Shown here piece after piece: positions 648 through 28,111 of a stretch of 29,971 bases of DNA; the stretch's first letter is position 1, and each line of letters starts with the position of its first letter. Made by a program: the position numbers and the translations under genes. Location: positions 1 through 29,971 of IMG/VR virus record IMGVR_UViG_3300025168_000422; one strand, written 5' to 3'. Under the pieces are notes generated by a model. The model saw only the letters and a list, made by a program, of their open reading frames with translations, ran no database searches and was not told the DNA's origin. Source of the DNA: a virus.

Positions 648-676
648 ATTATACCATAAAAACAGGCAAATGTAAA
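648..676 (-). promoter_or_regulatory. Left-facing sigma70-type promoter
   Basis: On the minus strand, TTTACA (676-671) and TATAAT (653-648) are separated by exactly 17 bp, with the extended -10 ATGG in front of TATAAT. This is the same sequence pattern as the ten + strand promoters in the window. Transcription would begin near 641 and run left across the 3' end of the gene at 216-614, where no minus-strand gene is evident. Confidence 0.75.
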
Positions 677-4328: not shown

Positions 4329-4401
4329 GGAGCTGTAGTTCATACGGTATTGAACAGCCTCTTAGTTAGGCAAGTTGCTGGTTCGAATCCAGCCAGCTCC
4401 A
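4329..4401 (+). tRNA. tRNA with unusual anticodon arm, anticodon read as UAG
   Basis: A 73-base cloverleaf. The acceptor stem GGAGCTG/CAGCTCC is perfect, the D arm GTTC/GAAC has a GG-containing loop, and the T arm GCTGG-TTCGAAT-CCAGC is canonical. The anticodon stem is only four clean pairs (GCCT/AGGC) around the loop CTTAGTT, which gives anticodon UAG, formally leucine for CUA codons. That is odd, because bacterial leucine tRNAs have a long variable arm and this one has about five bases; position 37 is also a pyrimidine. Bases after the discriminator A are CCT, so CCA is not encoded. The gene is certain to be tRNA-like; its amino acid is uncertain. Confidence 0.8.
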
Positions 4402-4407
4402 CCTTAA

Positions 4408-4453
4408 GTGAAAATAATTAGCACTCTTAACACCTTTTAAAAATTATTTTCAC
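4408..4453. repeat. 12-bp perfect inverted repeat upstream of promoter
   Basis: GTGAAAATAATT at 4408-4419 and its exact reverse complement at 4442-4453, 22 bases apart. The half-site is the same TTATTTTCAC-type sequence seen at 680, 6761 and 28055, but here the arms are in the opposite order. It ends 8 bases before the next -35 box. It could be a weak terminator behind the tRNA or a protein-binding site. Confidence 0.65.
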
Positions 4454-4461
4454 CAAAGTCG

Positions 4462-4490
4462 TTTACATTTGCAGAGAACTATGGTATAAT
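4462..4490 (+). promoter_or_regulatory. Sigma70-type early promoter for the peptidase-VWA gene
   Basis: TTTACA 4462-4467, 17 bp, TATAAT 4485-4490, extended -10 TATGG. A ribosome site AAGGA lies before the ATG at 4524. Confidence 0.88.
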
Positions 4491-4523: not shown

Positions 4524-6743
4524 ATGATTAAACACAAAAGCACCCTCGCAAAACTAATGGCTAGAGAAAACATTACTGTGCAATACGGTAATTACCAAAC
4601 AGCCTGGTTTGACATTAAAAACAGAGTACTTGGATTACCTATGTGGAAAGACATGGGTAAAGACGTAAGTGATTTACTTATTGGCCATGAAGTTGGTCAT
4701 GCATTATTTACACCATTCGAAGGTTGGCATGATAGCCCTGAAAAGCTAGAAGGCTGTCCTCGTTCTTATATTAATGTTGTTGAAGATGCTCGTATCGAAA
4801 GACATATAAAAGAAGCATACGTTGGTTTAGTAGGTCCTATGCAAAGAGGATATAAGAAACTATTTGATGATGGTTTCTTCGGTGAAACTCAGTCCCTCGA
4901 GTGGGATAAAGTAAAGTTGATTGATAAAATCAATTTGAATGCTAAAGTAGGGAATCTACTTAATGTACCTTTTTCTGATGAGGAGCAAGTGTACATGGAT
5001 AGAGCTATGAAAACAGTAACGTTTGAAGATGTAACTAATCTTGTAAGAGATATATTACAGTATACTAAAGATAACCAAGAAGAGTTATTACAACCTCAAA
5101 TGCCAGAAATCGATTTACCGGAAGATGGCGAAGAAGAAGAGCAAGACCAACAGCCTCAAATGGGTCATGACGATATGCAAAGTTCAGAAGATGAAGAACA
5201 AGCTCAAGCTGAATCAAAACAAAAAAACAACGATTCACAACAAATAACTGAAGATAAAGAAGTCGACGAAGATGCAGAAGCAGAAGGTAAGGGTAAAGTA
5301 GAAGAAGATATATCTGAAACAGATGAAAACTTCAGAAGAAAAGAACATACTCTTTTAGATACTGATGAGCAAGGCGGTCAAATTATGGTTGGCAACGAAT
5401 TCAATAAAAAAGTTGCTGATAAGATTGTTATACCTTACGCACAACTATCTGCAGAAAGAAAAGCAAGAATTGCTGAAAACATGGATTGGTTAAATGATGT
5501 CGTTAAAATGGATAAAGATGACTATTGGTACGACAAAAGATCACAAGCTCTTAACTATGACGAAGTACTTAATAACTATAAGTCATACATTAAAGATGTT
5601 AAAAAGAATGTTAATTTTGCAGTTAAAGAATTCGAAATGAGAAAAGCTGGATATAGATATTCAAGAGCTCAAACAGCAAAAACTGGTTCTATCGATGTTA
5701 ACAGATTATGGTCTTACAAAACTAACGATGATATCTTTAGCAGAGTAACAAAACTTGCAGATGCTAAAAATCATGGCATGTTTATGTTGATTGATTTTTC
5801 AGGTTCAATGAATGATATTATGGGAGATGTTTTAGAGCAGCTTATCCATTGCATAGTGTTCTGTAAAACAGTTAATATACCTTTTGATGTTTATGGTTTT
5901 ACAAATCAAAACAAAGCTTTAGGTGGCGGATGGAATGGAGAGAGATATATACTTCCAATGGATTCAGAAGTTGACCATGGTGGATTATCACTACCTCAGC
6001 TTATTACTTCAACTCTTAAAAAGAAAGATTATGACGAAGCATTACAATCACTATATGTAAGAATGGAATTCTGTAAAGATGACTGGACTAATAGAGAAAG
6101 AATGATTATCAGTCAAAACGAAGAGTATGGTTCTACCCCACTGAATGAGGCTCTGATACACAGTCACAAGATGATTGATAGATTCAAAAGGGCTAATAAC
6201 GTCGACAATATGAACCTCGTCGTGATATCTGATGGTGATGCAAACGGACTAAGAATTGCTAAAGACAGAGACCTAAAAATCGAAAGAACTAATTCAGGCA
6301 GATATGGCGGAGCTATAATAAACATTATGGGAAAAAACGTCAAGCTAAAAGACACAAGAAGAGAAGGAACTAAAGGACTACTAGAAAACTTACAAAAACA
6401 GTTTGGTCTTACTACAATCGGATTCTTCCTAGCTGACAATGGTCATAACTTTAAATACAAAATCTCTGACTGCGATGACCAAGCATATTGGGGAGAAGGT
6501 ATGAAAAAGTACAACAGAGAATATTCAAAAAACAAATGTGTTACGTTTAGAGACGAGCTTGGATACAATGAATTATACATTGTTAAATCTTGGAAAGGCG
6601 CATTAGCTACTGACGCTACTGAATTCGAAGTTAATGAAGACGCTTCGAAAGGTCAATTAACGTCAGCATTTAAGAAATACAGTAAGTCTAAAAAGCTTAA
6701 CAAAACATTATTAACTAACTTCGGAAAGGCCGTCGCAGAATGA
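4524..6743 (+). CDS. HExxH metallopeptidase-like and VWA domain protein (CobT-like)
   Basis: A 739-residue protein of three parts. The N-terminal part has a zinc-protease motif HEVGH at 55-59 with a candidate third ligand in NVVEDARIE (Glu87 or Glu92). Residues about 190 to 270 form a very acidic, Gln- and Glu-rich linker. The C-terminal part is a von Willebrand A domain whose metal site DFSGS (Asp424, Ser426, Ser428) is intact, followed later by a VISDGD segment. The architecture resembles CobT, the VWA partner of the CobS chelatase ATPase; the next gene encodes a CobS/MoxR-like ATPase. Such pairs act as ATP-driven chaperone-like machines, so a role in remodelling or cleaving a protein, rather than cobalamin synthesis, seems more likely. 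That choice is inference; the domains are clear. Confidence 0.85.
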   Translation: MIKHKSTLAKLMARENITVQYGNYQTAWFDIKNRVLGLPMWKDMGKDVSDLLIGHEVGHALFTPFEGWHDSPEKLEGCPRSYINVVEDARIERHIKEAYVGLVGPMQRGYKKLFDDGFFGETQSLEWDKVKLIDKINLNAKVGNLLNVPFSDEEQVYMDRAMKTVTFEDVTNLVRDILQYTKDNQEELLQPQMPEIDLPEDGEEEEQDQQPQMGHDDMQSSEDEEQAQAESKQKNNDSQQITEDKEVDEDAEAEGKGKVEEDISETDENFRRKEHTLLDTDEQGGQIMVGNEFNKKVADKIVIPYAQLSAERKARIAENMDWLNDVVKMDKDDYWYDKRSQALNYDEVLNNYKSYIKDVKKNVNFAVKEFEMRKAGYRYSRAQTAKTGSIDVNRLWSYKTNDDIFSRVTKLADAKNHGMFMLIDFSGSMNDIMGDVLEQLIHCIVFCKTVNIPFDVYGFTNQNKALGGGWNGERYILPMDSEVDHGGLSLPQLITSTLKKKDYDEALQSLYVRMEFCKDDWTNRERMIISQNEEYGSTPLNEALIHSHKMIDRFKRANNVDNMNLVVISDGDANGLRIAKDRDLKIERTNSGRYGGAIINIMGKNVKLKDTRREGTKGLLENLQKQFGLTTIGFFLADNGHNFKYKISDCDDQAYWGEGMKKYNREYSKNKCVTFRDELGYNELYIVKSWKGALATDATEFEVNEDASKGQLTSAFKKYSKSKKLNKTLLTNFGKAVAE

Positions 6744-6760
6744 ACAACACTATTCTGCAA

Positions 6761-6787
6761 ATTATTTCACCTCAAAGTGAAAATAAT
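6761..6787. repeat. Inverted repeat just upstream of promoter
   Basis: Arms ATTATTTCAC and GTGAAAATAAT around a six-base centre, ending two bases before the -35 box at 6790. Same half-site as at 680, 4408 and 28055. Confidence 0.6.
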
Positions 6788-6789
6788 CC

Positions 6790-6818
6790 TTTACATTTAC
6801 GCCAGACTATGGTATAAT
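6790..6818 (+). promoter_or_regulatory. Sigma70-type early promoter for the CobS-like gene
   Basis: TTTACA 6790-6795, 17 bp, TATAAT 6813-6818, extended -10 TATGG, then AAGGAG before the ATG at 6852. Confidence 0.88.
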
Positions 6819-6851
6819 ATACATATATAAACGATAAGGAGAAACTATATT

Positions 6852-7988
6852 ATGAATAACGTGAAAAAATCTACCCAGATAATTCTCAAAGAACTTGCTA
6901 CCAGATACCCTGATAGTACTCAGTTCAGAAAAAACATAATCGTCGAGATTGGAAAATCATTCGGTTACACAGGTAAAGATTGGGACCCTTTAATGCAAAA
7001 AGATAACAGAGTCAAAATTGGTACATACGATTTGGCTGGACTTATTGAACCATTAAGAGAAACAATGCTATCTAACAGCGTGGTTAAAATGCCACAATCT
7101 GCAGCTCAAATGCAGTCAATAGTAAACGAAGAAAAAACCTTCGCAAAAGCAGACAGTACTTTTATTCCATGGGGAGCATACACTGACATCGTAAAGATTG
7201 TTAAGTCAAATATGTTCTACCCAACATATATCTCTGGTCTTTCAGGCAATGGTAAAACATTCATGGTAGAACAAGCTTGCGCTAAAGTAGGCAAAGAGTT
7301 TATCAGAGTTCAAATCAATCCTGAAACAGATGAAGATGATTTACTTGGTGGCTTTAGACTTATCGATGGAGAAACAGTTTTCTCTAAAGGTCCAGTTCTT
7401 AAAGCAATGGAGAATGGAGCTATCCTCTTACTTGATGAGATCGATAGAGCAACAAACAAAATTATGTGCTTACAAGGAATCCTTGAAGGCAAACCAGTCC
7501 TAGTCAAAAAGACTGGCGAAATCGTAGAGCCTGCTGAAGGTTTCAATGTAATTGCAACAGCTAATACTAAAGGTAAAGGTTCAGAAGATGGTAGGTTCAC
7601 AGCAGCTTCAATCATCGATGATGCTTTCCTTGAAAGGTTTACAATATCAGTTGACCAACAGTTCCCATCTCTTAATGTAGAGAAAAAGATTATATTCAAA
7701 CACATGGAGAAATTCAATTGTATGGATATCGACTTTGCTGAAAAGCTAGTCCTTTGGGCTGACATTATCAGAAAGACTTTCTACGATGATGGTGTTGATG
7801 AATTAATTTCAACTAGAAGACTATGTCACATTGTTCAAACGTTCTCTATCTTTGAGAAAAGAGACAAAGCAATTGACTTATGTATTTCAAGGTTCGATTC
7901 TGATACTAAAGAAGCTTTTCTTGACTTATACAGCAAAGTAGATTCTGGTGAAGACTTTATAGAAGCAGAGGAAATTAACGATGTATAA
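6852..7988 (+). CDS. cobS: MoxR/CobS-like AAA+ ATPase
   Basis: A 378-residue AAA+ protein. Walker A GLSGNGKT is at 129-136, followed by a QINPETDEDDLLGGF segment typical of MoxR/CobS proteins, Walker B LLLDE (Asp195, Glu196), a sensor-like ATANTKGKG stretch and a LERF arginine-finger region. T4-like cyanophages carry a related gene annotated cobS. In cobaltochelatase CobS works with CobT, and here a CobT-like VWA/peptidase gene lies immediately upstream, so the two products probably form one ATP-driven machine. No CobN-type subunit is seen, which argues against a true chelatase. The first 100 residues are a phage-specific N-terminal domain. Confidence 0.88.
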   Translation: MNNVKKSTQIILKELATRYPDSTQFRKNIIVEIGKSFGYTGKDWDPLMQKDNRVKIGTYDLAGLIEPLRETMLSNSVVKMPQSAAQMQSIVNEEKTFAKADSTFIPWGAYTDIVKIVKSNMFYPTYISGLSGNGKTFMVEQACAKVGKEFIRVQINPETDEDDLLGGFRLIDGETVFSKGPVLKAMENGAILLLDEIDRATNKIMCLQGILEGKPVLVKKTGEIVEPAEGFNVIATANTKGKGSEDGRFTAASIIDDAFLERFTISVDQQFPSLNVEKKIIFKHMEKFNCMDIDFAEKLVLWADIIRKTFYDDGVDELISTRRLCHIVQTFSIFEKRDKAIDLCISRFDSDTKEAFLDLYSKVDSGEDFIEAEEINDV

Positions 7989-8283: not shown

Positions 8284-8312
8284 TTTACATTACAATGAAA
8301 GTATGGTATAAT
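8284..8312 (+). promoter_or_regulatory. Sigma70-type early promoter for gene 45 operon
   Basis: TTTACA 8284-8289, 17 bp, TATAAT 8307-8312, extended -10 TATGG, followed by GGAG and the ATG at 8333. It probably drives genes 45, 44, 62 and regA. Confidence 0.88.
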
Positions 8313-12539: not shown

Positions 12540-12568
12540 TTTACATTCAACCTAAACTATGGTATAAT
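12540..12568 (+). promoter_or_regulatory. Sigma70-type early promoter for gene 43, likely leaderless mRNA
   Basis: TTTACA 12540-12545, 17 bp, TATAAT 12563-12568, extended -10 TATGG. Only eight bases separate the -10 box from the ATG of gene 43, so the predicted start of transcription is within one or two bases of the start codon. No Shine-Dalgarno sequence fits. Confidence 0.85.
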
Positions 12569-15110: not shown

Positions 15111-15139
15111 TTTACATTTGCGTAAAAATGTGGTATAAT
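15111..15139 (+). promoter_or_regulatory. Sigma70-type early promoter for the LSm-MazG operon
   Basis: TTTACA 15111-15116, 17 bp, TATAAT 15134-15139, extended -10 TGTGG. It lies directly after the gene 43 stop. Confidence 0.87.
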
Positions 15140-17964: not shown

Positions 17965-17993
17965 TTTACATTTATGCCAAACTATGGTATAAT
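17965..17993 (+). promoter_or_regulatory. Sigma70-type early promoter for the base-modification operon
   Basis: TTTACA 17965-17970, 17 bp, TATAAT 17988-17993, extended -10 TATGG; GGAGA precedes the ATG at 18023. The next + strand promoter is 4.6 kb away, so seven genes probably depend on it. Confidence 0.88.
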
Positions 17994-21097: not shown

Positions 21098-21500
21098 TTC
21101 GTTTGACATCGACGGAGTAATCTATTTTGGTGAAGGCACCACAGGCGTAAGACCTGGTAGTAATGACATCATTATTACTGGGCGGCCTTTTTCTGATAGA
21201 GAAGCAACATTGAAAATGCTACATAGCAGAGGGATATATAATACGCTTTATATGAATCCTTTAGAAAGAATATTACCCAATCCTAATGTCACGCATGGAA
21301 TAAAAGATAATCCATTGTATGGCAGAAAAGCATCTGGTATTTTTAAAGGACAAATGATTAACATGTTAAAAGACTTAGGTGTAGAAATACAAATGCATTT
21401 TGAAGATGACCCAATACAAATTAAAGAAATTCAAAAGAGATGTCCTAATGTTTCTATTGTGCATTTGAAAAGAGATAACGAGGAACGTGTCAAGTACTAA
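21087..21500 (+). CDS. HAD-superfamily phosphatase
   Basis: A 137-residue minimal HAD protein: FDIDG (Asp7, Asp9) as nucleophile and acid/base, IITGRP (Thr31), a candidate Lys in FKGQ, and HFEDDP (Asp107, Asp108). All four HAD motifs are present, so it should be an active phosphotransferase or phosphatase. There is no room for a cap domain. Position right after inositol-phosphate synthase suggests dephosphorylation of inositol-1-phosphate or of a modified nucleotide. The ATG at 21087 is chosen because the conserved strand starts there; an in-frame ATG at 21072 would lengthen it by five residues. Confidence 0.82.
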   Translation: MKINSFDIDGVIYFGEGTTGVRPGSNDIIITGRPFSDREATLKMLHSRGIYNTLYMNPLERILPNPNVTHGIKDNPLYGRKASGIFKGQMINMLKDLGVEIQMHFEDDPIQIKEIQKRCPNVSIVHLKRDNEERVKY

Positions 21501-22551
21501 ATATAATTACGACTGGTCGAATTACGATAAAGAACTCATGAAAGAGTTCAATTGGTTTCTATATAAAGTAAACCAAAGGTCAGCAATTCAACTTGGTTAT
21601 AGCGATGAACAATACGAATCAGTAAATCGTCATGGCAAAAATGATTTTGGACTTGGAGAAGACGTAGAGTATTTTCATCCAACAATTACATTAGATGACC
21701 GTATGAGATTCATAGGTCAAGAGATTGCAAGTTTAGATACGTCAATAATGAATATTGTTGGCAATACTTTTATATCTCATTTCTATGGCGGAAGAGGAGT
21801 TCATTTTCTTGCTTCAGGAGAAGACAATGTCTTTGTCGATTTCGATAAGATAGCTGATAATGACCAAGAGTATATTCAATTTGTTCGTAATAATTTAGAT
21901 AAAGCTATTCAAAACAAGCAACCAATCTGGGGAACAACTGAACTGCACACTTCAATTCAGACTTCAGGTAGAAACTTTTGTCGTAAAAAGTATAATGAAC
22001 CTGATAGAAAGTTTCATGCAGTTGATGTATGTGAATGGGTTGCGTCGTTTCGTGATACAGGATTCTTAGAAAGAATGCAACAATGTAATCATATGTCAGA
22101 AATATATACTCTCTTAAGAGAACAACCTGGCATTGGACATTACTATGGATTTCACGGAGCTGCTTCATCATCTGTATTACCACAAATGAAGTATCATCAT
22201 GACCAAAGATTTGTTTCACCTGGACCAGGAGCAGTATATACAATACAATTGATGTGGCCAAATGCTCCAAAGAAATTATATGATGAAGCAATATACTACA
22301 TGAGAGAAAATTCAGATGAAATAGGATTAACAAAGAATGTCGAATTTCATCCTAAAGCTTTTAATATAAATAAGAAGGACGGTACAAAATTGTTTCAATA
22401 CGAACAAGATTCTCTTAAATACTACGGAACTGAAGTGTTGTCATGTCAGTTTGGTGTATACCTACAGATAAGAGAAGACGAGCGAGCATGCGCGCGTAGA
22501 CGCGTAGCACGTGTACAGAAGACGAATAATCTTACTGAATTCTTTGAATAA
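21487..22551 (+). CDS. Alpha-glutamyl/putrescinyl thymine pyrophosphorylase-like protein
   Basis: A 354-residue protein starting with GTG behind GAGGAA. The N-terminal half has FNWFLYKVNQRSAIQ and a RMRFIGQEIASLD block; the C-terminal half has LLREQPGIGHYYGFH (helix-hairpin-helix-like, Gly215 and Gly217) and RFVSPGPGAVYTIQ (GPGA at 246-249). This order resembles the aGPT-pyrophosphorylase family, related to DNA glycosylases and predicted or known to replace a pyrophosphate on a hydroxymethyl-pyrimidine in DNA with an amine or other group. In this phage the substrate would be a hydroxymethylcytosine derivative. The 3' end carries an odd GC-rich basic tail. Family call is moderately sure, chemistry is inference. 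Confidence 0.6.
   Translation: MSSTKYNYDWSNYDKELMKEFNWFLYKVNQRSAIQLGYSDEQYESVNRHGKNDFGLGEDVEYFHPTITLDDRMRFIGQEIASLDTSIMNIVGNTFISHFYGGRGVHFLASGEDNVFVDFDKIADNDQEYIQFVRNNLDKAIQNKQPIWGTTELHTSIQTSGRNFCRKKYNEPDRKFHAVDVCEWVASFRDTGFLERMQQCNHMSEIYTLLREQPGIGHYYGFHGAASSSVLPQMKYHHDQRFVSPGPGAVYTIQLMWPNAPKKLYDEAIYYMRENSDEIGLTKNVEFHPKAFNINKKDGTKLFQYEQDSLKYYGTEVLSCQFGVYLQIREDERACARRRVARVQKTNNLTEFFE
22480..22517. other. GC-rich patch of overlapping palindromic hexamers
   Basis: Within the 3' end of the previous gene, GCATGC, GCGCGC, ACGCGT and CACGTG follow one another in about 30 bases. The surrounding DNA is AT-rich. It encodes a basic RACARRRVARV tail using CGN arginine codons, whereas AGA is usual elsewhere in the window. 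Confidence 0.5.
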
Positions 22552-22556
22552 AAACG

Positions 22557-22585
22557 TTTACATTTGTGCCAAAGTATGGTATAAT
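22557..22585 (+). promoter_or_regulatory. Sigma70-type early promoter, likely leaderless mRNA
   Basis: TTTACA 22557-22562, 17 bp, TATAAT 22580-22585, extended -10 TATGG. Seven bases separate the -10 box from the ATG at 22593, so transcription would start at or next to the start codon, as at gene 43. Confidence 0.86.
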
Positions 22586-22592
22586 ATATCTA

Positions 22593-23573
22593 ATGAAAAA
22601 TATAATTAATTGTCCATTTATTCCTATAGCCAAAAGGCCAGGCTCTCATAGAGGAGCTGCAGGAGTAATGTATGGCGATATGATAAAGGAGAAATATGGA
22701 AACTGCGATGTTAACTATGGTGGAGAAATTCAAGACCACAATAATTATGATAACCTTTGGGTCTATCACGGCACTGATTGGTCTGGTGGAATTAATATGT
22801 TTGGTGGCGTATACGGTTTTCCTTATGTTAAGAACACTGTCAACTTTTCTAAGTTCAAAGGCAGAGTCTTTTCAATTGGAATCGACTTCCCGCCGTATCA
22901 CGAAATGGTTAAATCAAAACTGGAATCAGCTAAGAAAGAGGTTCAACCGGAATGGCATGAAGTAGACCTTAAAAATCTAGAACGCATGTTTAATGAAGCC
23001 GAAAGAATTGACTATCCTAATCCAACTAATAAAATAGTTATTGGTGATAGTCATTCCATTTGCATGTATCGACCAGGTTGGACAGTAAACAGTGTTCCAT
23101 TCAAAACTTTAAATGGAGCTATAAACGATGGATTTGATAAATTTATCCCATTTGATTACGAAGAGATAGAATGCTATTTTGGTAATATCGATATAAGACA
23201 TCACGTAATTAGATTAGGACAAAAGATAGAAGATTTAGCTGATAGGTATATTGAAGAAGCAAATAAATATAATGCAAAGATATATGAGTTGCTTCCAATA
23301 GAAGATGTAAGTAGAAGAATACCGCAATCAGGATATTATAAAGGACAACCATTTTACGGTTCTTGGTCAGAAAGAAATGATGCAAGAAATAAATTTAACG
23401 ATTACATAGAGAAAGAATACGGCATCAAAAGATGGACCGGTCATCTCTTTAATAAAGAAGGTAAGCTCGATTTTAAATACATGGAGAAACCACAATCAAT
23501 ACATTTATCCAGAGAGTTCTATCCATATTGGAATGGAATAGAAGCAGCAGGATTAGAGGAGTTTTTTACATGA
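22593..23573 (+). CDS. SGNH/GDSL hydrolase-like protein of unknown role
   Basis: A 326-residue protein. Three spaced motifs suggest an SGNH-type hydrolase fold: IGDSHS (Asp152, Ser153) as block I, GNIDIRHH (197-204) resembling the block III region, and SIHLS (His304) near the C-terminus as the catalytic histidine block. Such enzymes remove or transfer acyl groups on sugars and other small molecules. An N-terminal domain of about 140 residues is unassigned. The start at 22593 follows the promoter; an in-frame ATG at 22566 lies inside it. Operon position next to a C5-methyltransferase-like gene suggests work on modified DNA or its precursors, which is inference. Confidence 0.55.
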   Translation: MKNIINCPFIPIAKRPGSHRGAAGVMYGDMIKEKYGNCDVNYGGEIQDHNNYDNLWVYHGTDWSGGINMFGGVYGFPYVKNTVNFSKFKGRVFSIGIDFPPYHEMVKSKLESAKKEVQPEWHEVDLKNLERMFNEAERIDYPNPTNKIVIGDSHSICMYRPGWTVNSVPFKTLNGAINDGFDKFIPFDYEEIECYFGNIDIRHHVIRLGQKIEDLADRYIEEANKYNAKIYELLPIEDVSRRIPQSGYYKGQPFYGSWSERNDARNKFNDYIEKEYGIKRWTGHLFNKEGKLDFKYMEKPQSIHLSREFYPYWNGIEAAGLEEFFT

Positions 23574-24757
23574 GTTACGCGAGTATAATACCACTTATAG
23601 GTGGAGAAACAATAGCAATGGAGAATGTCTTTGGAGAAAGACCAAAGTATATAATGACATACGACGGTTTTCAAGCTAATGAATCTCACCTATTACATCA
23701 TTATAACAATGAGGTCCCATATTTGAACCTCTCAGAGGGAGCGAGTTACACAGAAAAAGTTAATGTGATTAATACTGTATGCCCATGTGCAGGGCTCAGC
23801 TCACTGAGTCCATCAGCAGGTAGTAATAATCCTATGAACGAATGGATGTATACAGCTGCTGAATATGTACTAAGTGAAGCACAACCTGATGTATTTTGGG
23901 GAGAGAACGCTCCAAGGCTAGCAAGTAAGATGGGAGAACCAGTAGTAAAAAAACTAAGAAAGATTGGAGACAAATATGGTTATACATTTAGTATCTTTAA
24001 AACAAAATCTATATTACATGGATTAAGTCAAGTAAGAGATAGAACATTTTATTTCTTTTGGAAAGGAGATGAAGTACCATTATTTGAATACGTATTAGAA
24101 AAACCAACAATGATAGCTGAAGATATAAGAGCAGTTGAAAGAAGAGAAGATGACCCAATGAGTCAGATACTTACTAACGAAAAGACTCCATCAGATGAGC
24201 CATATTATAGATATGTATTAGAAGTATTAGAAGGTGGTATTACTCATAACGAATTTCAAAACAAAATAGAAAAAACAACTAACCCTATGGACTATATAGA
24301 AGAAAGAACGACGTATAAAGAAGTAGCTAAATGGATGAGAGAAAATGGTTATGATAGCGTAGCTAAAAAATGTGATAGACAATATCATAAGCTAAAAGCA
24401 GGTGGTAACATAATGAGAAAGACAACAGAGATACCTAAAGATAAAATAGGAGCTTTTGTCGGTCATATGCCAACACAACTAACTCATCCAGATGAAGATA
24501 GATACCTAACAGTACGAGAAGCTTTATCACTTATGAAATTACCAAATGATTTTATATTACTTGAACCAAAGAAATCGCTTAATCACATTTGTCAAAATGT
24601 CCCAGTGACTACAGCAGAGCATGCTGCAAGAATGGTTCAACGATATCTAAACAATCAGTTAGAAATGATTGATACTAAATTCCTAGTTCAGGATAACAAA
24701 AAAAGAACATACAAATATGAAAAAAACAGTTTACAACTCACTGATTTTATGGTATAA
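23570..24757 (+). CDS. C5-cytosine DNA methyltransferase-like protein
   Basis: A 395-residue protein with the motif order of C5-cytosine methyltransferases: an N-terminal PLIGGETIAMENVFG segment in place of the usual FxGxGG SAM loop, CPCAGLSSLSP (Pro72-Cys73 as catalytic motif IV), WGENAP (Glu112-Asn113, motif VI), QVRDR (154-158, motif VIII) and C-terminal LTVREALSLMKLP and QNVPV (motifs IX and X). The catalytic Cys, Glu and Arg are present. The SAM-binding motif is atypical. In a phage that should carry 5-hydroxymethylcytosine a plain C5-methylase is unexpected; it may act on unmodified cytosine or have another activity. ATGA overlap with the previous gene. Confidence 0.8.
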   Translation: MSYASIIPLIGGETIAMENVFGERPKYIMTYDGFQANESHLLHHYNNEVPYLNLSEGASYTEKVNVINTVCPCAGLSSLSPSAGSNNPMNEWMYTAAEYVLSEAQPDVFWGENAPRLASKMGEPVVKKLRKIGDKYGYTFSIFKTKSILHGLSQVRDRTFYFFWKGDEVPLFEYVLEKPTMIAEDIRAVERREDDPMSQILTNEKTPSDEPYYRYVLEVLEGGITHNEFQNKIEKTTNPMDYIEERTTYKEVAKWMRENGYDSVAKKCDRQYHKLKAGGNIMRKTTEIPKDKIGAFVGHMPTQLTHPDEDRYLTVREALSLMKLPNDFILLEPKKSLNHICQNVPVTTAEHAARMVQRYLNNQLEMIDTKFLVQDNKKRTYKYEKNSLQLTDFMV

Positions 24758-24758
24758 T
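24730..24758 (+). promoter_or_regulatory. Sigma70-type early promoter inside the methyltransferase 3' end
   Basis: TTTACA 24730-24735, 17 bp, TATAAT 24753-24758, extended -10 TATGG. The last nine codons of the upstream gene, ending in TAA, are formed from the promoter itself. It drives bS21, uvsX and 41. Confidence 0.82.
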
Positions 24759-28030: not shown

Positions 28031-28054
28031 TCTTACATCAACACTTTTTCACAA

Positions 28055-28079
28055 TTATTTTCACTTTTAGGTGAAATAA
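28055..28079. repeat. Inverted repeat upstream of promoter
   Basis: Arms TTATTTTCAC and GTGAAATAA around a six-base centre, ending four bases before the -35 box. It is nearly identical to the repeat at 680-703, although the genes are unrelated. Confidence 0.65.
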
Positions 28080-28082
28080 ACG

Positions 28083-28111
28083 TTTACATTTGCGTGAAAG
28101 TATGGTATAAT
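28083..28111 (+). promoter_or_regulatory. Sigma70-type early promoter for small-gene operon
   Basis: TTTACA 28083-28088, 17 bp, TATAAT 28106-28111, extended -10 TATGG, then AAGGAG before the ATG at 28147. Confidence 0.88.

Follow-up and report, generated by a model that had tools for sequence, protein, structure and literature searches.

In the 29,971 bases of the IMG/VR record IMGVR_UViG_3300025168_000422 (the window; 35% GC), which span the replication block of a marine myovirus of the T4 type, two neighbouring genes encode a VWA-metallopeptidase protein (4524-6743, plus strand, 739 amino acids) and a MoxR-type AAA+ ATPase of the kind annotated as cobS (6852-7988, plus strand, 378 amino acids). 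I propose, with a probability of roughly 0.6, that the two proteins act together as a protein-remodelling protease driven by ATP, and not as a cobaltochelatase, and that the cobaltochelatase protein CobT is a relative with a decayed protease site. The observations that carry this proposal are the architecture of the two proteins, their invariant sites, their strict pairing and placement, the chain of homology to CobT and the loss of the site in CobT.

Results

The original prediction, made from the sequence of the window, had placed two open reading frames at these positions on the plus strand, and both are borne out. The two proteins are members of known families. The profile of PHROG 459 ('peptidase') covers residues 4-738 of 739 in the VWA protein (E 1.4e-178), and that of PHROG 249 ('porphyrin biosynthesis') matches the ATPase over its full length (E 6.9e-108). 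Against Pfam the ATPase matches PF07728 AAA_5 (1e-20), and the VWA protein has no match at E<=1, CobT included. Relatives of the VWA protein are present in 463 phage records, those in named phages all being less than 60% identical to it, and the ATPase shares 52% identity with its counterpart in phage HTVC008M. A profile search for the VWA protein in 150 Pseudomonadota genomes returned nothing, a weak result, as the search had no positive control. Conservation was read from alignments of 74 full-length non-redundant VWA proteins (from 108 IMG/VR relatives and named phages; mean pairwise identity 46%, minimum 19%) and of 58 non-redundant ATPases (from a pool of hundreds of IMG/VR relatives and named phages).

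Just 38 of the 739 columns are invariant across the 74 VWA proteins, and all 12 predicted ligand or motif positions of the zinc site and of the metal-ion-dependent adhesion site (MIDAS) are among them, so that the conservation of these motifs is more than chance. The intact HEVGH site that had been predicted, with Glu56 as its glutamate, is confirmed at residues 55-59 (4686..4700, plus strand): H55, E56 and H59 are kept in 74/74 relatives, and of the 13 histidines in the window protein H55 and H59 alone are invariant throughout the family. A glutamate helix follows, NVVEDARIE (4773..4799, plus strand), in which N84, E87, D88 and R90 are invariant in all 74 and E87 is the predicted third zinc ligand, as suggested by the alignment and by a helix in the structural model. 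The gluzincin order of an HExxH motif and then a Glu ligand is found in every relative, at a spacing of 25-39 residues. In zincins the Glu of HExxH is the catalytic base and not a metal ligand.

An AlphaFold model of residues 1-190 alone (4524..5093, plus strand; predicted local distance difference test, pLDDT, 90; predicted template modelling score 0.85) has HEVGH within a helix of residues 45-62 and Glu87 within a second one of residues 80-98, which is the gluzincin arrangement. When this gluzincin-like domain is compared with the PDB by Foldseek, selecase and ArdC make up the top five matches (E 0.18-0.28), with PprI and abylysin ranked lower and zincin E-values of 0.18-1.5 overall; the likeness of the modelled domain to solved zinc metallopeptidases is suggestive only. 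Among predicted viral structures (BFVD) it matches phage 'CobT' proteins (A0A6J5NJV0, E 7e-4) and the VWA protein of the haloarchaeal virus HCTV-2 (E 8.5e-3, TM score 0.63).

Behind this domain lies an acidic flexible linker (residues 190-262; 5091..5309, plus strand), recognised by its composition, low conservation and low pLDDT: family-wide it is poorly conserved, with 36% Asp/Glu vs 5% Lys/Arg, and residues 193-258 have a pLDDT below 50. The VWA domain (5769..6593, plus strand) has a complete MIDAS, which reads D424-x-S426-x-S428, T538 and D570, all five residues being invariant in 74/74. The solved structure closest to the full-length model (pLDDT 78.5) is NorD, at its VWA domain, in complex with NorQ (9qh6, E 1.8e-4); human midasin, with its MIDAS domain, is among the matches as well. 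The protein ends in a conserved C-terminal tail (residues 701-739; 6624..6740, plus strand; F716, K723 and A738 invariant in alignment A1), which is predicted to contact the ATPase ring by analogy with NorD (PMC13036017).

In the ATPase, G129, G132, G134 and K135 of the Walker A motif GLSGNGKT (residues 129-136; 7236..7259), D195 and E196 of Walker B (7425..7439), N238 (7563..7565), R262 (7635-7637) and R322 (7815-7817), all on the plus strand, are each kept in 58/58 proteins. For the last three I infer the roles of sensor 1, Arg finger and sensor 2, respectively, and with these the protein has every one of the elements, Walker A and B included, that mark a MoxR AAA+ ATPase. Its relatives in the PDB are midasin, CobS (9ujv), NorQ (9qhd) and CbbQ. 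Read from sequence, such a pattern of invariance in the two proteins marks both metal sites and the ATPase as working ones.

The two genes are adjacent, with the VWA gene first, in 137 of the 138 loci that have both; in P-SSM4, pcyA is located between them. Where loci are long enough to tell, gp46 is found upstream of the pair (52/52) and gp45 downstream (63/63), a setting that extends across phages of Synechococcus, Prochlorococcus, Pelagibacter and Ochrobactrum, and the window shows the same arrangement, with the VWA gene first and the pair flanked by gp46 and gp45. In phages unrelated to these, DNA polymerase or primase genes also lie next to the pair. A lone tRNA-Leu gene is located at 4329-4403, between gp46 and the VWA gene. 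In Listeria phage P100, which has a 'porphyrin biosynthesis' gene, neither of the neighbouring gp89 and gp91 is a VWA/HExxH protein.

The prediction had noted a resemblance to CobT/CobS and set the intact HEVGH against it. The resemblance is real, and the contrast turns into a difference of evolutionary state, because the protease domain and the N-terminal domain of CobT appear to be homologous, and in CobT the zinc site has been lost. A direct comparison of the N-terminal domains of PHROG 459 and cellular CobT is not significant (E 0.11), and the link therefore rests on intermediates. The PHROG 459 domain matches that of the 'CobT' proteins of phages and phage-plasmids (E 2.6e-12), HExxH falling on HExxH and ED on ED; the HEVAH protein of an E. 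coli phage-plasmid matches the Pfam CobT N-terminal domain PF06213 (1.1e-26), and so does a chromosomal HEAAH protein, L311 (5e-13). The VWA homology to CobT is found directly (4e-6) and through intermediates (6e-18 and 5e-45). At the motif itself, true CobT reads RGLGDSMALR...DAVEQARVE and the phage-plasmid protein RGFLDHEVAH...NALEDVFIE. HExxH is found in none of the cellular CobT proteins compared (0/77), which come almost entirely from Rhizobiales-type alphaproteobacteria; their H, E and H positions are S/A, M/L/I and R/K. Many unrelated groups of phages keep the motif in their 'CobT', among them Roseobacter CRP-810 (HEAGH), Gordonia Woes (HEIGH), ICP2 (HECYH), HCTV-2 (HEMEH...NVLED) and the SSU5-like phage-plasmids, and the catalytic Glu is present in each of the 29 Zn-plus phage proteins of CobT type. 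In a tree of 60 proteins, true CobT forms a single Zn-minus clade (support 99) and the Zn-plus state occupies all deep phage branches, although branches are long and the deeper order is unsure. As the same motif stands at the same place in separate deep branches, the HExxH state is best read as ancestral.

Among cellular sequences, the HExxH matches L243 and L251 were rejected, being in wrong reading frames, as was L306 as an HExxH-bearing CobT, since its HEIPH lies off the aligned site. The chromosomal protein L311 (2522-4183; 554 amino acids, CobT-like, bacterial genome G341) has an intact HEAAH and NIIEDVRIE and is a possible protease-competent cellular relative of CobT; no recognisable MoxR neighbour occurs within the 6.5 kb read. 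A further CobT-like gene, L312:2345-4162, has a shifted motif, SHEIVCHGHH...NILEDPRGE, has a MoxR gene after it, the order seen in phages, and is possibly another zinc-site variant.

According to PMC8651126 and many surveys of auxiliary metabolic genes, the pair would be a viral cobaltochelatase, which takes the place of host CobS/CobT or boosts them, acts together with host CobN and raises the cobalamin supply. The homology of the ATPase to CobS is indeed real (TIGR01650, 3e-14), and the VWA protein is a remote homologue of CobT. Cyanobacterial hosts, moreover, make (pseudo)cobalamin. However, the ATPase reaches 52.9 bits against the CobS equivalog TIGR01650, for which the cut-off is 559, the CobT model TIGR01651 (cut-off 759 bits) has no match in the window, and true CobT has lost the protease site that phages keep. 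That no CobN was seen holds true for the window; since the 30-kb record is a fragment, the search was extended to the phage collection, with a protein from a cob operon as query, and CobN turned up in 2 of 50,697 phage records, neither of them a T4-like marine phage, and in none of the carrier phages. The related CobT-type pair is common on phage-plasmids of E. coli and Klebsiella, hosts without the aerobic cobalamin pathway. The same module in the same setting is present in the SAR11 phage HTVC008M, and SAR11 is B12-auxotrophic (PMC9296465), an argument that concerns the family. A census of the CobN family in alphaproteobacteria was not used as evidence on SAR11, since the family also includes the chlorophyll proteins ChlH/BchH.

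Each gene had further been predicted to have its own promoter with an operator-like repeat. The promoters are there (4462..4490 for the VWA gene, 6790..6818 for the ATPase gene, both on the plus strand), as two of 11 copies in the window of a sigma-70-like 29-bp motif, TTTACAT-N11-TATGGTATAAT, of which 0.16 are expected; the other copies are at 648-676 (minus strand), 723-751, 8284-8312, 12540-12568, 15111-15139, 17965-17993, 22557-22585, 24730-24758 and 28083-28111. Nearly all precede genes, the motif is common to close relatives, and it serves gp45, gp43 and gp55 as well. The ATPase gene also has a repeat, the dyad ATTATTTCAC-N6-GTGAAAATAA (6761..6786, plus strand), a putative operator beside the -35 box, which recurs at 679-703 and 28054-28079. 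This dyad of 25-26 bp (TTATTTTCAC/GTGAAATAA) is thereby located just upstream of three TTTACAT promoters, abutting the -35 box, and is perhaps the operator for a phage regulator. Before the VWA gene the predicted repeat is reduced to a half-site, TTATTTTCAC, at 4444 (plus strand) and a wider inverted repeat upstream of the promoter (4403..4458, plus strand; 17-nt arms, 22-nt gap). The idea of an operator control special to the pair was dropped, as promoters and repeats are phage-wide elements. From its promoters, the expression of the pair looks early or middle, together with the replisome; no literature was found on the timing of its transcription in cyanophages.

The dyad TTATTTTCAC/GTGAAATAA is also observed at the divergent promoter pair 648/723, of which the leftward promoter (648-676, minus strand) faces a gene on the other strand (216-614). 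This promoter may yield an antisense or small RNA, for which no Rfam match was found. Elsewhere in the window, the stretch 21487-24757 shows matches to the helical domain of a 5-hydroxymethyldeoxyuridine DNA kinase (PF18723, 8e-12) and to a C5 cytosine methylase (PF00145, 2e-16), and holds a protein with a non-significant match only to T4 beta-glucosyltransferase (E 0.09); it is perhaps a block for DNA hypermodification.

Discussion

A remodelling or processing machine in place of cobalamin synthesis, as originally predicted, is favoured by the zinc site, the MoxR-VWA architecture, the lack of CobN, the presence of the module in a SAR11 phage and its placement among replication genes, but the idea is not a new one, having already been published for jumbo phages (PMC7824862). 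In the machine that I envisage, the MoxR-type ATPase would form a hexameric ring, on which the VWA protein would dock through its VWA domain and C-terminal tail, like NorD on NorQ. For NorQ-NorD, PMC13036017 describes how the finger of the NorD VWA domain enters the NorQ pore, how the C-terminus touches the ring and how ATP rotates the VWA domain, and it proposes that the substrate is gripped at two points, the MIDAS and the N-terminal domain. In the phage machine an acidic residue of the target would be held at the MIDAS metal, ATP would turn the VWA domain against the N-terminal domain, with the acidic linker between the two, and the rotation would strain or open the substrate for the N-terminal zinc site (H55/H59/E87, base E56) to cut; the N-terminal grip of the NorQ-NorD model would here be a zinc protease. 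The machine would be made early, alongside replication and recombination genes, so that its targets would most likely be replisome or host proteins. In CobT, the protease site would have decayed once the machine turned to metal insertion. Complex formation, coupling, proteolysis, timing and targets make up the conditional part of this proposal.

Several points weigh against it. Interaction, zinc binding and proteolysis are all predictions, early expression is read from promoters only, and the Foldseek E-values of the N-terminal domain to zincins in the PDB are not significant by themselves. The zinc motif has decayed in two CobT-type proteins of phages or plasmids (QEVAK in L164:4001-5923 and SEISK in nickie, L156:3358-5442); the site has thus been lost outside cobaltochelatase too, so that not every such system depends on protease activity. 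The MoxR-VWA pairs known so far serve in metal insertion or enzyme activation, and I know of no proven protease among them.

The same machine could instead fold and cut structural proteins during virion assembly, as published for jumbo-phage MoxR-vWA pairs with an N-terminal metallopeptidase (PMC7824862), where the Acidianus two-tailed virus is cited as needing a MoxR-vWA pair for tail assembly. I consider this unlikely, as the pair is fixed in the replication and recombination block, has the promoter that is common to gp45, gp43 and gp55, and keeps company with DNA polymerase or primase genes in unrelated phages as well. Moreover, the late-type box TATAAATA is absent directly upstream of either gene, and the available running text of PMC3037559, tables aside, lists neither of them as a virion protein. 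The shared replisome promoter argues mildly against a purely structural role.

Less probable still is a metal-insertion chaperone like NorQ-NorD, in which the metal at HExxH would be passed to a phage or host metalloenzyme, such as a non-haem iron enzyme. Cofactor insertion or enzyme activation is what the well-studied close MoxR-VWA pairs do, according to PMC13036017, the VWA domain of the phage protein is nearest to that of NorD, and in HTVC008M several Fe(II)/2-oxoglutarate oxygenase genes are located around the pair. However, Glu56 would be the catalytic base and not a ligand, and it never varies, neither in the 74 relatives nor in the 29 Zn-plus phage proteins of CobT type, which favours cutting over mere metal carriage; and the metal inserter compared here, true CobT, is without HExxH. 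A viral cobaltochelatase, in view of the scores against the CobS and CobT models, the rarity of CobN in phages and the hosts concerned, is the least probable of the three, and I regard it as quite improbable.

Few auxiliary metabolic genes are reported from marine viruses as often as cobS, which is used as evidence for phage-fed B12 synthesis; surveys still count it as a B12 gene (PMC9301287, PMC11705849), and in the Baltic it was present at 75% of the water stations (PMC9301287). Should the pair be a protease or remodelling machine, this B12 argument would fall for the marine phages of the T4 type, and probably for the majority of phage cobS/cobT genes too, HCTV-2 included; many phage 'cobS/cobT' genes now assigned to B12 metabolism probably carry the wrong name. 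An origin for the N-terminal domain of CobT would then also be suggested. More tentatively, and at somewhat less than even odds, the pair may represent a third and widespread design of AAA+ protease, with the protease neither fused to the motor nor stacked on it as a barrel: a zinc-protease on a VWA adaptor, which would be a core early machine of bacterial and archaeal tailed phages, and from which the aerobic cobaltochelatase would have evolved by loss of the protease site.

Comparison with known systems

The closest system is the 'peptidase'/'cobS' pair of cyanophages in the Kyanoviridae, with the same families (PHROG 459/249), the same order and the same neighbours, gp46 and gp45; there is no essential difference, and the window holds a diverged member. 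In PMC8651126 the cyanophage gene is considered a cobT 'mistakenly annotated as a peptidase', and the viral CobST is thought to hijack host CobN. This statement looks only half right: the homology agrees with the present comparison, whereas the dismissal of the peptidase does not, because both cyanophage-type proteins and HCTV-2 have an intact site.

CobS-CobT (TIGR01650, TIGR01651; PDB 9uka series) shares with the phage pair the MoxR ATPase and a partner with N-terminal domain, acidic linker and VWA domain, but CobT has lost the zinc site, the cellular order is cobS before cobT, the system works with CobN, and the CobT models have no direct match to the phage VWA protein. NorQ-NorD (PDB 9qh6, 9qhe) likewise combines a MoxR hexamer with a VWA partner, which is the nearest VWA fold match; in the available part of PMC13036017 it inserts iron into nitric oxide reductase, and no HExxH domain is reported there for NorD. 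The 'CobT' proteins of phages and phage-plasmids (PHROG 1576 and PHROG 17276; SSU5-like, Rhizobium, ICP2, Roseobacter CRP-810, HCTV-2) share HExxH, mostly followed by the ED glutamate helix, and a VWA domain, with a MoxR partner usual where the neighbourhood was read. They differ in that their VWA domain is far nearer to true CobT (5e-45), that they lie outside the gp46-gp45 block and that two members are without the zinc site.

Finally, group 2.2 jumbo phages have the same architecture and pairing, a MoxR AAA+ ATPase with a vWA protein that carries an N-terminal metallopeptidase, proposed in 2021 to act in virion assembly with processing (PMC7824862). The likeness is one of described architecture, and in the text of that paper the words CobT and cyanophage cobS are absent and no such link is drawn. 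The pair in the window is thus another member of a kind already proposed for jumbo phages, and the link to CobT is the newer part of the finding.

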